A stretch of 64,000 bases of DNA from Diabrotica undecimpunctata (taxonomy: Eukaryota; Arthropoda; Insecta; Coleoptera; Chrysomelidae), in NCBI RefSeq assembly GCF_040954645.1, contig NC_092810.1, positions 68,694,660 through 68,758,659 of the forward strand, read 5' to 3'. Every line of letters begins with the position of its first letter. Within the stretch, counting starts at the first letter, position 1. A model generated the notes under the pieces. The model was given only the letters and a program-made list of their open reading frames with translations. It was not told the origin of the DNA and did no database searches. A program made the position numbers and the translations under genes. Below, piece by piece: positions 5,406 through 46,844 of this stretch.

Positions 5406-6011
5406 TTTATTTACAAATAAAATCAAATTATCGATTCCACTAACTTTAAATAATGTCTTAACTAACTAATTATTTGTAACACATCAATTTCGTAATAATT
5501 ACACTTGTTATTCTGAATCAATCCGAAAATCGTTTCATTGTTTTTAACGAGCCTATACAAGCCATAACGAGCCTCTTAGATACATACAGAGAAAAAAAAA
5601 TGAACAAAAGAATGTTTATTTTAAATTTATTTGACATGAACGGAAGATGTTAATTAAGCGCTGTTTGTATACAAACTCATGTTACATTTCTAAAGAAAAA
5701 CAGGTCGTATTTAAGAATGCACTTCCACTTTGTTGAACAGATGTGACGGAAATATTACAATTTCATGTAATAATAAGTCGGCTTCTTGTAAATACATCTG
5801 GAAGTTAGTAATTACTCCAATTATTGTGAAAAATGAGAAAAACAAAAAGAATAATACATATTGTTTATAAAAATTGTTTTTTTTTTGTCGAAAAGCATGC
5901 TCACAATACTGAATATTTTATTTTTGACGTTATTGTATGAAGTACTGACTTTCTTAGAAAAACAAAGGTTTAATGCTATTTCTACGTTATTTTGAACGTC
6001 AACTATTTATA
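5406..6011. other. No recognisable feature
   Basis: AT-rich sequence without an open reading frame or repeat that I can name. Confidence 0.5.
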
Positions 6012-7689
6012 CAGGTTGAGTCATAACTATTGGGACATAGACTAAGGACAGGTTATTTGGACCAAAATATGGCTATTGGGCCAAATATGCCTTAATAAAA
6101 TGTTGCTGAGAAAAAAGATACAGGGTGTTAAAGTTAATTTTTGTTTTTCGTTTTTTGCTAATAGTTTCCCTGTATATTTATAAATTGCTATCAAAATTGG
6201 CACAGAGGCATAATCTTAGACAAGAAATAGTATTTTATTTACAATTCCACTATCAAATACCAAACTAATAAACAAAGTTGCAACTAACGTAAGGTTTCCG
6301 TTTTGACGATAAATCAAAACTAAACACACTTTAACTTAAAAGAACTCACAAAAACTGAAACTAAATGTTCTACATAGTCTCCTCCGCTTTCTATGCCTTT
6401 TCTAATTCTTTTTATAAAGGATTTTCGGACGTTAAAAAAAATATTATTCTGTCCCCTTATAAGATTAGCTGCATTTTGAATGTATCTCCAAAGTTCGTCT
6501 CGTGTATTAATTTCATTGGCATCTCCATTTAAATTCGGAGGAAGAACATAAGGCCCTAGTAGTTGGTCGCCTATAATGCCACACCAAATATTCAATTTAA
6601 ACTCATGCACTTCTTCTTCCCAATAATGACTATTTCGCCAATTAAAAACCCCTCGTCTGGTAAAAGTTGCTTCTTCGGTGAACATAATATTCTTAATAAA
6701 GTGTCTGTCATTGCGATGTTTATTCAGAATACGTTGGCAAAACTGTAACCGTCGTGGAAGATCTGTTGGAAGTAAATTTTGAAGAGGATGGAGGTTCTTT
6801 TTTTTTAGAATTCTAACAATAGACGACTGACTTACTCCTGTTGCTGCTGATAGATGTCGTGAACTTATTTCAGGATTTCCATCTACTCGAACCAAAAGTT
6901 CATCTTCTTGATTAGGTGTGATTTGTTTCGGTCGACCACCCCGATTTTTAGTGTGAAATGACCCAGTTTCACCTAAACTACGATATTTGTGGTATTTTTG
7001 GTATTTTGTTGGTATATTCCATACCTTCTGGCTGCCGAGCGACCGCAAAAATTTTCTTGTCCGTATACGCAAATCATATCTCGCATTTCTTCATTAGTAA
7101 AATGATTGTGACGAGGCATTTCAATCAAAAAAAGTAATGATTACTTTTAAAAAATGCAACATTACACTACACTGTCACATCAAAAATAATTTACTCCAAA
7201 CACAGTCCAAAGCATACTTTTCATAAATGAAATAATATTTGAAATCCTTTTTTAAGACTCTAAGCAGTTCGACTGCGTTTTTATCGAAAACGTTTGAAAT
7301 TATCATGTTTAAACAAGAGTACCAATTTTACGCAAAAATGATGTTTACGTCATATTTTCTAATAGAAATTACTACAAAGTTTCATCAGAAAAAGTTTAGA
7401 CTCAATTTGATCATTAGGAATGATCCACGTGGCGCCCTCTATGACAAAACGTAAAATTGTAAATAAAATACTATTTCTTGTCTAAGATTATGCCTCTGTG
7501 CCAATTTTGATAGCAATTTATAAATATACAGGGAAACTATTAGCAAAAAACGAAAAACAAAAATTAACTTTAACACCCTGTATCTTTTTTCTCAGCAAAA
7601 TTTTATTAAGGCATATTTGGCCCAATAGCCATATTTTGGTCCAAATAACCTGTCCTTAGTCTATGTCCCAATAGTTATGACTCACCCTG
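6012..7689 (-). mobile_element. Mariner-like element with very long terminal inverted repeats
   Basis: The ends CAGG(T/G)TGAGTCATAAC are inverted copies flanked by TA (6010-6011 and 7690-7691). The inverted repeats run about 235 bp each (6012-6246 and 7456-7689) and differ at only a few bases. The element is 1678 bp and carries a broken transposase on the minus strand. TA duplication, size and protein place it in the IS630/Tc1/mariner superfamily. Confidence 0.9.
6320..7119 (-). pseudogene. Mariner-like transposase with internal deletion
   Basis: The likely native start is the ATG at 7119 (MPRHNHFTNEEMRDM), which shifts frame near 7010-7040 into the longer frame. The helix-turn-helix region reads RGGRPKQITPNQEDELL and ISSRHLSAATGVSQSSIVRIL. 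The first catalytic motif is MFTEEATF, with E where D is expected. After IWCGIIGDQLLGPYVLPPNLNGD the protein jumps straight to the C-terminal VRKSFIKRI block. The segment with the second and third catalytic acids (HDGAPAH and WPARSPDL in relatives) is missing. The protein is certainly inactive. Stop near 6320. Confidence 0.85.
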
Positions 7690-7929
7690 TATACAAGTAC
7701 CTCATTATTTTCGTCACTAGTTGTCGATTGCATTGTATTTTATTTCTTTCAATACAAATTAAACGGGATATAGATATAGATAATATGCACCAGAGTGATT
7801 CAGTTGCAGTAAAAAAGTCCCACTGATAATAAAAATTGAAGAGATCTCTAAAGAGGTCAACATTCTAAAAGATAAGAATACATATATGATTATAAATTGA
7901 CGCCTACTCAAATTTTCTCACCATTCCCA

Positions 7930-40534: not shown

Positions 40535-42107
40535 TCCAGTCGTCAGAGACGAAAATACCACTGAACCTCTAAAAACCATACGAACAAGCTGAATTTTGCT
40601 GAGCGTATTATTTTGAGTCGCCAAAAATATGCAAAAAAGTTTACTAATTTTACCCCCGCACTTTTAACACCCGTCGCAGGGGGGTAAAAACACGAAAAAA
40701 TCGATTTACCAAGAATCTATACTCCGTAGAAAAAAATGTTACAAATAAAAAATGTAGCTGAGATAATTTGAAATAAAAATGTTTATAACCATTTTTTGTG
40801 TAGAATGAACCGTTCTCTTAGAAACAACGCTTGAAACAACCGTCGATTTTACATATCAATTACGCGTGCCACATCAATGTTCAATAAAATTTGCATCAGC
40901 TCGACGGTAAAAATTCAATAACTTTTGATTCAAGTGACCTACCGACAAAAGTCAAGATGCGTTTTAAAGGTAAAGAGTTCAGATTTCGTATGCAGTTTTT
41001 TGTATTTTATTGAAAATAAAATCAGATTTTATATAGGTGTTAAATAAATAAACGTGGCCCGATTTTTGCATTTTTTATGATTCTCGTGAGATCAATATAA
41101 TATATCCCTTTTATTGACTAGCCACTATCAAGTTTCAATTACTAGAGCCTAACCTTAAAAACCTATAACATGAAATTTTAGTTTTAACTTTTGGCAAAAA
41201 ATGTGAGGCATTTGAAATATGCTTAAAAAACGCCGGATTTAAACTTTCACACAACAAACAATCTAAAACATTTAAAACTTTTTTTTTTAATAAAACTATT
41301 ATAGTACGTTTTTCAAAAGAATAAAACTTCTTCAATAAACTACACCCAAAACCGTCTTCTTAAATGCATTTGCCGTGACGTGTGATCTTTTTTAATGTAA
41401 ACCATTAAATTCTGCGTTTTTTATTCATATTTCAAATGCCTCATATTTGTTACCACAACTCAAAATTTGAAATTTCATGTCATAGGTTTTAAAGATTGAC
41501 GTCTAAAAATTGAAATTTTTTTACAACTGGTCAATGAAAGTTATCAATTTTATTGATCTTACGAGAATCATAAAAAATGGCAAAAATCGCGCCACGTTTA
41601 TTTATTTAACACGTATAAAATCTGAGTTTATTTGCAGCAAAATACAGAAACTGCATACAAAAGCTGACCTCTTTACCTTTAAAACGCATCATAATTTTTG
41701 CCTGTAAGTCAATCGAATCAAAAGTTATCAAATTTTTACCGTCGAGCTGATACAAATTTTATTGAACATTGATTTCACGCGCGTAACTGAAATGCAAAAT
41801 AGACGGTCGCTTCAAGCGTTGTTTCTAAGAGAACGGTTCATTCTACATAAAAAATGCTTATAAACATTTTTGTTTGAAATTATTTCAGCTACATTTTTTA
41901 TTTAAAACATTTTTTTCTACGGTATACAGATTCTTGGTAAATCGATTTGTTTGCGTTTTTACCCCCCTGCGAAGGGTGTTTTAGGCGAAAGCTCGGGAGT
42001 AAAAGTGGTAAACTTTTTTGCGTATTTTTTGGGGTCCTAAAATTAATATTCTCTGCAAAATTCAGCTGGTTCGTATGCTTTTTAGGGGTCAACTCTCTGA
42101 CGACTGG
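40535..42107. mobile_element. Giant foldback (hairpin) element, copy 2, most complete
   Basis: The ends TCCAGTCGTCAGAGA (40535) and TCTCTGACGACTGGA (42107) are inverses. The relation continues inward for about 780 bp per arm with a centre near 41320, so virtually the whole 1.57 kb is one imperfect hairpin. Matching landmarks are ACCATACGAACAAGCTGAAT with its inverse near 42075, GAACCGTTCTCTTAGAAAC (about 40810) with its inverse near 41835, and ATCAGCTCGACGGTAAAAAT (about 40895) with its inverse near 41745. By eye the arms are roughly 85 % alike. It has no coding capacity. Two other copies lie at 3986-5405 and 57640-58905. Confidence 0.88.
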
Positions 42108-43464: not shown

Positions 43465-43891
43465 ACCAAGTTACAATCCTACTAAAGCTGAACTGGTAGA
43501 CTTAATCTTTCAACTTCCAGCACCATTTGTAATTGTCGGAGACTTCAATGCCTACAATATTGCATGGGGTTCACAGACCACGTACGGCAGGGGAAAAGTT
43601 GTAGAGAACGTACTAAACATTACCGACACTTGTTTTCTAAATAATGGTTCCAACACTCATATCAATATTTCAACAGTAAGGTAAGTTTCTCCGCGATTGA
43701 CCTAAGTCTATGTGAATCCAAAATATATCCTTCTCTAACATGGAATGTTTTAGATGATCTATATGATAGTAACCATTTTTCCATCCTTATAACCAATAAT
43801 GAAGAAAAATCACCAGGAACAGTAATAAAGTGGAAGATTTCTAATGCTGACTGGGCAAGTTTCAGAACTGAAGTAGACCGGCAAATGGAAC
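43085..43891 (+). pseudogene. I-clade ORF2, AP endonuclease domain
   Basis: RLERIQQLIRDTNPNIICVQ then ETNFK carries the catalytic E. SGGTSIFVEKDV follows, then VPNLEAIAVTIWCPKIITIC. The TA-repeat-encoded (IY)n run precedes PPSYNPTKAELVDLIFQLP and FVIVGDFNAYNIAWGS (the D-x-N motif). The end is FSAIDLSLC and DSNHFSILI (S-D-H, here DSNH). A frameshift lies near 43330. The nuclease nicks target DNA to start reverse transcription. The stretch continues to KWKISNADWASFRTEVDRQM before the palindrome. Confidence 0.85.
43387..43461 (+). repeat. (TA)n microsatellite inside the endonuclease coding frame
   Basis: About 37 TA units encode alternating Ile-Tyr in frame, exactly where relatives have a short Y-I-P-P motif. 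The frame stays open through the repeat into PPSYN. Confidence 0.95.
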
Positions 43892-43969
43892 AAATTTTCT
43901 TCTAAAAAATTTTGAATAAAATCCTTTATAAAAAGGTATATAAAAAACCCAGTTGGGCTATGTTGCATT

Positions 43970-44009
43970 GACAAAACGTTTTCGGAATAAATATTCCATC
44001 ATCAGTGTC
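43970..44009 (-). ncRNA. Hammerhead ribozyme motif, left arm
   Basis: The minus-strand copy reads identically to the right-arm motif: GACA, CTGATGA, a GGAAT/ATTCC stem, GAAA, ACGTT, TTGTC. It is oriented away from the palindrome centre. Confidence 0.75.
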
Positions 44010-44341
44010 TAGTTAATACATGGATGTAGCCACTAAATATGTGGGTAAAAACCCTTTAAAAATTATTAAATAAGATTTGATTTACATTATGTCTAATTTA
44101 CAGTTAAGATGTTAAAGTTACCGTTGGATTGGTAACATGGCGACATATGACTCTACATTAGTTGCGAGCCCTGTCCTCAGGACTCGCAACTAATGTAGAG
44201 TCATATGTCGCCATGTTACCAATCCAACGGTAACTTTAACATCTTAACTGTAAATTAGACATAATGTAAATCAAATCTTATTTAATAATTTTTAAAGGGT
44301 TTTTACCCACATATTTAGTGGCTACATCCATGTATTAACTA

Positions 44342-44381
44342 GACACTGATGATGGAATATTTATTCCGAAAACGTTTTGTC
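44342..44381 (+). ncRNA. Hammerhead ribozyme motif, right arm
   Basis: The motif GACA-CTGATGA-T-GGAAT-ATTT-ATTCC-GAAA-ACGTT-TTGTC contains the two invariant cores CUGAUGA and GAAA. Stem II is GGAAU/AUUCC with an AUUU loop. Stem I is GACA paired with UGUC. Stem III is the very short, loopless AAC/GUU, with cleavage expected after UUU. Minimal stem III is described for Penelope-type hammerheads, which act best as dimers. Activity is not shown by sequence alone. Confidence 0.78.
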
Positions 44382-44510
44382 AATGCAACATAGCCCAACT
44401 GGGTTTTTTATATACCTTTTAATAAAGGATTTTATTCAAAAATTTTTTAATATATGGTATACAGCCAAATACAGGAACTTTGTTTCCTTGTGGATTTTAA
44501 ATTTTCTTCT

Positions 44511-45836
44511 CTGGAAATATAGGTAATGATGTAGATAATTTTAACAAATGCATTATATCCACTGCTGACATTTACGTAGGAAAAAGTATAATAAATTCCA
44601 CAAGAAAATTAACACCTTGGTGGAATGAACGTTGTGCAACTGCTGTAAAAGAATACAAAACTGCTCTTCATAAGTACCGCCGAAACAAAAGTGACGAAAA
44701 CTTGATTTGTTTTAAAAAACTTAGAGCCAAGGCGAAGTATATCTTAAAACAAAGTAAGAAACTCTAATGGAAAACCCACATTTCCACTCTAACTTATAAT
44801 ACTGTCCCTTCTCAAGTTTGGAAGAAAATTAATTAAATGCAGGGGAAAAATACGCACACAAGAATTTCAGTTCTTTTACATAAAAGTAATTTAGTAACCG
44901 ATGATCAACAAATCGTCAATGTAATCGCCGAAAATTTCTATCAACGATTTAAAAACAAGAATGTACTCAAAGAAACAAATCCCCCTGTATAATATCCTTC
45001 CCAATCTCACAAATTTGACTCTACTGTCTTAAACACTCCATTTAGGTACACTACAGGAACTCTTAATTCCAACTTGCAAGAATTCAGCTACAGGTTCGGA
45101 TAACATCCCCTTCATATTCCTCAAAAATCTTGTACAGTATAAACAAAAAAATTGCTTATACTGTACAACATAATATGGACCATTCAGAAATTTCCAATAT
45201 TATGGAGGAAATCTATCGTTATACCAATCAAGAAAAAGGACAAATCCCCGAATAATCCAAATTCCTACCGTCCTATTTCACTGACATGCACCTTGTGTGA
45301 GCTGCTAGAAAAACTAATAAACAAAAGACTTATGTGGTATCTAGAAAAACACATAATTTTAGACTCAGCTCAATCCGGATTCCGTCCATCACGAAGCACG
45401 GCTGACAACTTAGTAATGTTACAAACAGAGATCACACCCTCCTTTCAAAATAAGCAAGATTTAATAGCAACATGCAACATCATTTGACATCGAGAGCGCC
45501 TTCGACACTCTATTACGTTCTAATGTATTGACCAAATTAAAAGAATACAATATTACGGGAAACACATTATCTTTTATCGAACAGCTTCTTTCAAATTGCC
45601 GCTTCAAAGTATTAGTTAACGGAAAAGCTTCCTCAACCTACGTTCAGGAAAATGGGGTACCCCAAGGATCAGTTCTAAGCTCCACTTTATTTATAATAAC
45701 TATTAATGATATTTGCAAGAATATTCACAACCCACAGAAGTACAACTTATATGCTGACGACCTGATTTTATACACAGTAGCTAATGAACACAAGATACTG
45801 GATGTAATTTTTGATAGTCGACTAATATGAAAATCA
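44511..45836 (+). pseudogene. I-clade ORF2, reverse transcriptase domain
   Basis: The linker reads LTPWWNERCATAVKEYKTAL and FKKLRAKAKYILKQSKK. RT motifs follow in broken frames: WRKSIVIPIKKKDKSPNNPN then SYRPISLTCTLCELLEKLI, ILDSAQSGFRPSRSTADNLV, a damaged palm motif at about 45485 (FDIESAFDTLL-like in shifted frame), VPQGSVLSSTLFIITINDI and LYADDLILYTV (catalytic D-D, about 45755). It then loses about 200 bp before ending near 45836. Confidence 0.85.
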
Positions 45837-46157
45837 CATATTAAAAACTTCAAAGGTTATTGCTTGGTAAGATTAAATCTATTGAAATCTCTAGCAAACC
45901 ATCACTGGGGAGCTGATGAAGATATCCTAATTAAGGTATACAGATCTCTCATTTACTCTCGACTGGATTATAAATGCTTTGTATACATGTCAGCATCAAA
46001 GACTTAGTTAGGGACTCTTGACATTATTCAGAATACCGCATTACGAATATGTTTCGGAGCTTTCAGATGCAGTCCCGCCGAAAGTCTTCGGTGTGAAACA
46101 GGTGAACTTCCCTTTTCGCTTCGCAGGCAACAACTTCTTCTAACATACTTTGGTAGA

Positions 46158-46844
46158 GTGTCTTCGAATCAAAACAACCCTATATATAAGCTAATGTACC
46201 AGCCCTATAACTGTGAGACCGATAATAAATACCAGACTCAAATTTTACTTCCCCTTTCACGACCTGTTGATTTTTCAATAACAGATACTCATATACTGTC
46301 ATCAACACCTCCATGGATTGATAACATACCAAAAATTAACCTTTCGCTTAATAATTATCAGAAAAATGAAACCAATAGCCAAATTCTGACTCAATCTTTC
46401 CTAGAGCTGGTCAACACAAACTCATATGACGAGATTCTCTACACAAATGCATCTAAAACTGAGACAGGTGTCGGATATTCTGTAACAACTTCAAATAGTA
46501 TCATTCAGAAGTTCTGCCTTCCACAATCCACCTCTATCCATACAGGAGAGCTGTACGCCATCCTACAAGCATTAAAAGGCTTATGTAACCAAACTAAAGC
46601 CAAGAACACTGCAATATGTACAGATTCGATGTCCTCCATCGACTCGATTAAAAATATTTATTCCGAACATCCATTAGTTCATTCCATACATGAAGCAACA
46701 AACTGTCTCAAATCTTCTGGAACAAACACGACATTAATCTGGATTCCTTCACACGTTGGCATTTTAGATAATGAGACTGCTGATCCTGCTGCAGAAGAAG
46801 CAATTACAACCAAATCAGACATCAAATCTGTTCAACTAGCATAA
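46158..46844 (+). pseudogene. I-clade ORF2, RNase H domain
   Basis: YTNASKTETGVGYSV has N where the first catalytic D is usual. SIHTGELYAILQALKG holds the E. AICTDSMSSIDSIKNI holds the second D. LIWIPSHVGILDNETADPAA holds the H and last D. The first acid is lost, so the domain is likely inactive. It removes the RNA strand during element copying. Confidence 0.85.

Follow-up and report, generated by a model that had tools for sequence, protein, structure and literature searches.

The window, by which we mean the whole 64-kb stretch of Diabrotica undecimpunctata DNA that was analysed, contains a palindromic insert at 43904-44498 bracketed by a 12-bp direct repeat, AAATTTTCTTCT. The insert consists of two arms of 270 nt each, which are inverted copies of one another with 3 mismatches and are separated by the spacer TCCT, followed by a 51-nt tail on the right arm only (Table 1). 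An earlier note made from these letters had described near-perfect inverse arms, a 12-bp target duplication and a one-sided 51-bp tail, all of which we found, the arms being slightly longer than the 265 bp given there. The insert is hosted by a LINE-like copy (43600-46844) with an RNase H domain at 46158-46844. When the insert and one copy of the repeat were removed in silico, the reading frame of the host LINE was restored, indicating a clean insertion. Elsewhere in the window, 239-nt terminal inverted repeats that are 99% alike (6008-7693) surround a reading frame at 6320-7072 with a weak HTH_32 match, under its cut-off, and this structure is probably a DNA transposon with long terminal inverted repeats. 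At 40666-41980, inverted repeat arms of 333 nt, 89% complementary, lie 649 nt apart and are accompanied by nested inverted repeats.

Table 1. Features of the palindromic insert and its target site (window positions)
Feature	Position	Strand	Basis
Target-site duplication, left copy (AAATTTTCTTCT)	43892..43903	.	sequence comparison
Left arm: inverted pLTR copy without tail; outer end is unit position 270, read as the inner RT start site	43904..44173	-	
Left-arm hammerhead-type motif (GACA...TGTC), predicted cut after 43974	43970..44009	-	descriptor; no Rfam match
Mirror of the splice junction in the left arm	44010/44009		
Palindrome centre TCCT; the first 34 nt or so of the usual RNA are missing from both arms here	44174..44177	.	
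Right arm: sense pLTR copy	44178..44447	+	
Outer stem I of the right-arm motif	44331-44336/44382-44387		fold
Splice junction in the bulge of stem I, where longer relatives have the GTAAGT...TTTTAG intron (89-90 nt)	44341..44342	+	
Right-arm hammerhead-type motif, predicted cut after 44377	44342..44381	+	descriptor; no Rfam match
One-sided tail; outer RT start site ...CTTGTGG (44490-44493) at its end, plus ATTTT	44448..44498	+	
Target-site duplication, right copy	44499..44510	.	

The ATTTT that follows GTGG in the tail may be derived from the target. Each arm carries one hammerhead-type motif, the two lying on opposite strands and each composed of CTGATGA, a GGAAT/ATTCC stem and GAAA with a GACA/TGTC stem, just as first reported. 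Stem II is 5-6 bp, stem I combines GACA/TGTC with an outer 6-bp helix in the predicted fold, and stem III is 2-3 bp. A descriptor for hammerheads with a short stem III, applied to both strands of the window, returned exactly these two matches with the core and three stems present, and gave 0 matches in 100 random 64-kb sequences generated with an order-2 Markov model. A covariance-model search, by which the earlier note had suggested checking the ribozymes, found no match to the Rfam 15 hammerhead models over the window at gathering scores, nor at E<=10 on the insert or on 44330-44400. Rfam hammerhead models expect a longer stem III. The putative assignment as a type I hammerhead with a minimal stem III, with predicted self-cleavage, is therefore based on the descriptor and the Penelope context described below.

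The Rfam matches that did appear were mostly to miRNA hairpin models, all below gathering scores, as the insert is a near-perfect palindromic hairpin, and we rejected miRNA precursors as an explanation. A coding start right after the ribozyme was rejected as well, with the frame broken by A/T-run indels in several copies and its ATG missing from one subfamily. A blastn search of a phage collection gave no match, and neither did an exact search of viral and prokaryote contigs with the 26-nt ribozyme core. When the whole insert was folded, the predicted minimum-energy structure (-450.5 kcal/mol versus -50.5 kcal/mol for one arm alone) paired 39 of the 39 tested positions across the right ribozyme with the left arm, and a read-through transcript would hold the entire motif in this modelled hairpin. 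The idea that a hairpin hides the right ribozyme thus holds as a fold prediction, while a use for it found no support, the locking being a by-product of the palindrome. None of the copies read ends exactly at the predicted cut (unit 200/201), the nearest ends being those of left arms that begin at unit 191 and 197.

The affiliation of the insert was provided by a relative (L069 together with L066), the one copy among those read that has the same pseudo-LTR (pLTR) and tail as the window unit and encodes a reverse transcriptase (RT) and a GIY-YIG domain. It is an inverted pair with a 12-bp duplication, and its left arm, which has no tail, ends at the inner position (unit 264). The Pfam matches of its protein, RVT_1 with E 1.5e-5 and GIY-YIG with E 0.0041, are both below the curated cut-offs; the protein aligns across both domains with a 780-aa ORF at another locus (L048; 28% identity, E 8e-20), which passes the cut-offs for both RT and GIY-YIG. 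Because a relative with the same pLTR and tail encodes Penelope-like RT and GIY-YIG domains, the window insert can be identified as an ordinary, non-autonomous solo-pLTR pair of a Penelope-like element (PLE), in agreement with the original suggestion of head-to-head pseudo-LTRs with no gene between. Other PLE traits are present in the copies read, namely inverted pLTRs with a tail at one end, a short target-site duplication (TSD) and a GT-AG intron in the 5' region (an 89-90 nt segment, measured in 3 copies). A spliceosomal intron in the 5' region is also a trait of the Penelope element of Drosophila virilis. A genome search with GIY-YIG revealed at least 8 places with minus-then-plus neighbours by hand count, among the best 150 of 6686 candidates scored, and one of these 8 places (L070) is itself a palindrome with arms of at least 542 nt, indicating that the head-to-head geometry recurs in another PLE family.

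The genome searched comprises 1.74 Gb. A query made of the right arm plus tail matched at least 64 places (best 40 of 1815 candidates scored), a 33-nt tail piece ending at GTGG has 339 exact matches with none for the reversed control, and a 41-nt arm-end pattern was found at 1376 places at up to 3 mismatches. From these we read 70 copies in two sets. Set A comprises 40 copies, the window copy and the 39 further best-scoring ones, selected for their resemblance to the complete spliced right arm. The 30 copies of set B were chosen by the exact tail only (20 out of 44 listed for C1, 10 out of 33 listed for C2), in listed order and skipping copies already included. The tail recurs, one of two features whose constancy had been proposed for checking, and the other, the duplication length, is not constant: it is 12 bp in 24 of the 41 copies measured and ranges from 8 to 20 bp. 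The window insert belongs to a young, abundant family in which a short RNA is copied nearly end to end. Since a single stretch of 600 bp shows the two ends, the centre and the duplication of such an insert as well as its source haplotype, competing models of insertion can be compared by counting.

We then asked what kind of RNA served as the template. Longer copies have an 89-90 nt GTAAGT...TTTTAG segment exactly where short copies read AACT(T/A)GACACTGATGA, at a position that falls in the bulge of ribozyme stem I and adjoins the GACA strand. Among the 70 copies, 54 are spliced, 10 keep the intron as judged by the presence of the 3' splice junction, and 6 are uninformative. The ratio in the tail-defined set B (14 spliced, 10 unspliced and 6 uninformative) is the fairer one, because 40 of the 54 spliced copies had been chosen with a spliced query. 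The 10 intron-keeping copies all belong to set B, and several of them extend upstream of the usual 5' end; in one, L066, the reading frame with RT motifs and GIY-YIG lies in this upstream part. The absence from 54 of 70 copies of a GT-AG intron kept by longer relatives indicates that the template is a spliced sense RNA. In set A, 28 of the 40 right arms begin no more than 4 nt from the A of TCAGTTGC, which we take to resemble the arthropod initiator. The template RNA would thus be about 350 nt long, running from the initiator-like TCAGTTGC, its inferred 5' end, to GTGG and bearing the hammerhead-type motif. The window copy, one of hundreds, is itself probably inert, because the initiator-like stretch is lost in both arms.

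We next compared the palindromes of the copies. The centres contain different fillers, and the left arms are truncated differently among copies. Left arms are sometimes short at their inner side, and their outer end lies near unit 258-283, with one at 249; even left arms beginning at unit 37, 86, 119, 191 or 197 still end at 258-277. Measured from the other side, the left arm starts 44-58 nt inside the tail end (GTGG), with a median of 50 nt (33 placed of 42 tried). In one copy (L037, C8:82299000-82305000), about 170 bp of foreign sequence lies between the arms at the palindrome centre. We could judge the left end and the duplication in 61 of the 70 copies, the other nine, all in set B, being L049, L050, L060, L061, L065, L071, L074, L075 and L078. 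In 18 of these 61, a left arm that extends to the inner site is missing. Because the centres, fillers and left-arm truncations vary and these 18 copies have no such left arm, the palindrome is made anew at insertion, and the earlier proposal that it is mobilised as a unit found no support.

The presence of the left arm is coupled to the duplication. In a table assembled by hand for the 61 copies, in which class and duplication of L021, L053 and L077 were settled by hand where the script had misplaced the left edge, a duplication of at least 10 bp is present in 41 of the 43 copies with a left arm reaching the inner site versus 3 of the 18 without (Fisher p 1.4e-9), and a 10-bp match arises by chance in 0.2% of cases with swapped flanks. 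The exceptions among copies with the left arm are L029, without duplication, and L073, with only 8 bp; those among copies without it are L021, L051 and L059, with at least 10 bp, and L056 and L079, with 8-9 bp. At the 33 placed left junctions, the left target end shows microhomology to the RNA of 2.5 nt on average versus 0.79 nt for swapped targets, although it is absent at 7 of them. The left ends and the microhomology fall within an A/T run, which makes their placement less secure.

Each palindrome examined has a single tail. Among the 100 places listed out of the 1376 arm-end matches, we counted by eye at least 14 head-to-head pairs with an exact tail and 12 without an exact tail nearby. 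Ten of these 12 were examined. In all ten (10/10) there is just a single tail, with slight mutations, and the duplication measures 12-13 bp, in one case with a mismatch (by eye, 13 bp with one mismatch in L085/L086 and 12 bp in L093/L094). No two-tail insertion was found among 100 exact tails listed. Just one pair of tails in that set, L081/L082, lies head to head at a distance of up to 5 kb; this candidate was rejected, as it is an inverted duplication that includes the flank. It should be noted that the flanks are inverted duplicates also at L060/L061 (C1:82151-82155 kb), as at L081/L082 (C3:73110-73112 kb), which may mean that these palindromes extend into the target or that the assembly produced the pattern.

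The two arms of a palindrome also share their source haplotype. Across 15 diagnostic positions in 39 palindromes, counted without L060, L061, L066 and left arms shorter than 60 nt, the arms agree in 459 of 464 cells, whereas 2000 re-pairings of arms between copies gave a mean agreement of 76% and a maximum of 86%. The divergence between arms is 0.6% within a copy versus 2.0% between copies.

Based on these results, we propose that each of the two ends of the cut target primes reverse transcription on a single spliced sense RNA, at two neighbouring sites, and we put the probability of this reading at roughly 0.6. The GIY-YIG/RT protein of the element would cut both target strands about 12 nt apart. 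One target 3' end would prime at the outer start site (GTGG) of the RNA, and the other would prime at AAAAATTTTTT, which lies about 50 nt inward of that site in this same RNA, with both cDNAs running toward the RNA 5' end. Host repair would then join the cDNAs head to head with small templated fillers, and fill-in of the two 12-nt overhangs would give rise to the duplication. If the second end were left unprimed, its overhang would be trimmed and no duplication would form. We infer this order of priming, the joining by the host and the double use of one RNA molecule from the copies described above. The use of the same molecule is the simplest reading of the arm concordance and the one-tail rule, while two RNAs of one source copy, or gene conversion between arms, could also account for the concordance. 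Cleavage by the ribozyme is not needed for the proposed route. That no end of the copies read falls exactly at the predicted cut agrees with the report on an Anolis PLE, in which insertion did not require cleavage (PMC11167929).

The best of the alternatives, which we nevertheless regard as unlikely, is that two separate RNAs of the same source copy are held in a dimeric complex, one primed at the outer and one at the inner site. The Anolis protein has been modelled as a dimer (PMC11167929), and arm concordance cannot separate one RNA from two siblings. Alignment of L069 (about 293-690) with L066 showed that about 308 bp, including the initiator-like site and the first exon, are missing from the left arm of this pair. 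Canonical splicing was rejected as the cause of this gap, the edges of which are not GT-AG. Such a difference between arms would fit two RNAs, whereas a single shared RNA requires a template jump or a later deletion to explain it. With independent priming, however, one tail in 10 of 10 pairs and no two-tail insertion among the 100 listed are unexpected.

A less probable alternative is a snap-back, in which the first cDNA folds at its 3' end and copies itself before the product is joined to the other target end. Identical arms are predicted by such a route, matching the concordance, and three copies (L052, L016 and L072) look like short snap-backs. Short inverted fillers or mini-hairpins were also found at the 5' ends of 10 of the 18 copies without a full left arm versus 34 of 179 control flanks. 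A snap-back predicts neither a left arm with a near-constant outer end and a variable inner end nor a missing duplication in copies without the long left arm. The inverted fillers point to a closing step by fold-back or by templated end joining.

Self-priming on an antisense transcript, a route put forward for Penelope elements of rotifers (PMC3846280), would likewise yield head-to-head pairs with palindromic junctions, but we consider it very improbable here, because 54 of 70 copies are without the GT-AG intron, which implies a spliced sense template, and because the near-constant inner site is left unexplained. A fold-back DNA transposon moving as a palindromic unit, to which the near-perfect inverted repeats and the duplication might point, is scarcely credible given that the centres differ, the ends are asymmetric with one tail, the intron is removed and some copies have only one arm.

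Whether PLEs in general integrate by paired target-primed reverse transcription, with one RNA molecule used at two fixed neighbouring sites and the duplication marking the second priming, is in our view an even bet. If so, inverted pLTRs, tails and TSDs would all have one cause. The insertion mode of PLEs is an open question in the literature (PMC3846280, PMC11167929), and sister copies such as those read here suggest how mirror-image insertions form.

The layout itself is already known. The earlier note had considered that it may be undescribed, yet PMC8969392 and PMC3846280 already report pLTRs inverted head to head, one of the two being tailed, together with TSDs and palindromic junctions. 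The latter, a 2013 study of the rotifer Adineta vaga, presents Pen2a_Av, a PLE of the Penelope/Poseidon type, with head-to-head inverted pLTRs, palindromic junctions, RT and GIY-YIG, an optional 31-bp tail on one pLTR and an inverted copy 37 bp shorter than full pLTRs. It also covers solo pLTRs, an intron in one family, and TSDs of 8-10 bp in the cases described. Its authors leaned toward antisense self-priming, kept a sense template possible and left the origin of the inverted pairs undecided. Elements of the Pen2a_Av type and the window family thus have in common the inverted head-to-head pLTRs, the optional one-sided tail, the short TSD, the palindromic junctions, and RT plus GIY-YIG. In contrast to Pen2a_Av, the window insert is a single pLTR pair without an ORF, the TSD of the family is mostly 12 bp and the intron is removed in 54 of 70 copies; a term search of PMC3846280 met no mention of the hammerhead.

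A biochemical parallel is given by Poseidon PAc of Anolis carolinensis (Frangieh et al. 2024, PMC11167929), the protein of which cuts and extends both strands in vitro. According to the sections of that report used here, two adjacent internal start sites on the RNA bound the tail, hammerhead cleavage is not needed for insertion, A/T-rich targets are preferred, and the later insertion steps are yet to be validated. The PAc start sites lie inside the ORF and are alike on both strands in the Anolis assay, whereas in the family described here the two palindrome ends use different start sites, the outer one at one end and the inner one at the other. Head-to-head pairs, microhomology and TSDs are not mentioned in PMC11167929 as covered by a term search. 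The coupling of duplication and left arm together with the concordance of the arms was not found in a limited search of the literature, including parts of PMC11167929, PMC3846280, PMC8969392, PMC7229834 and PMC5718144, and this mechanistic evidence from a population of copies, which we consider moderately interesting, is the part worth passing on.

Finally, the family resembles animal retrozymes (Cervera and de la Pena 2020, PMC7229834), which are short and non-coding, with RNAs of about 170-400 nt and type I hammerheads, and which are proposed to be moved by PLEs. Both are short non-coding units with a hammerhead-type motif and a PLE as the proposed mover. Retrozymes are described there as tandem repeats with canonical hammerheads and circular RNA, whereas the units of the window family are head to head or single, with a minimal stem III and the intron spliced out; tandem head-to-tail repeats are absent among the copies read. 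A further motif was observed in the element with the 780-aa ORF (L048), where CTGAAGA...GAAA with a possible stem II lies near the 3' end and may represent the diverged remnant of a hammerhead in a second PLE family.
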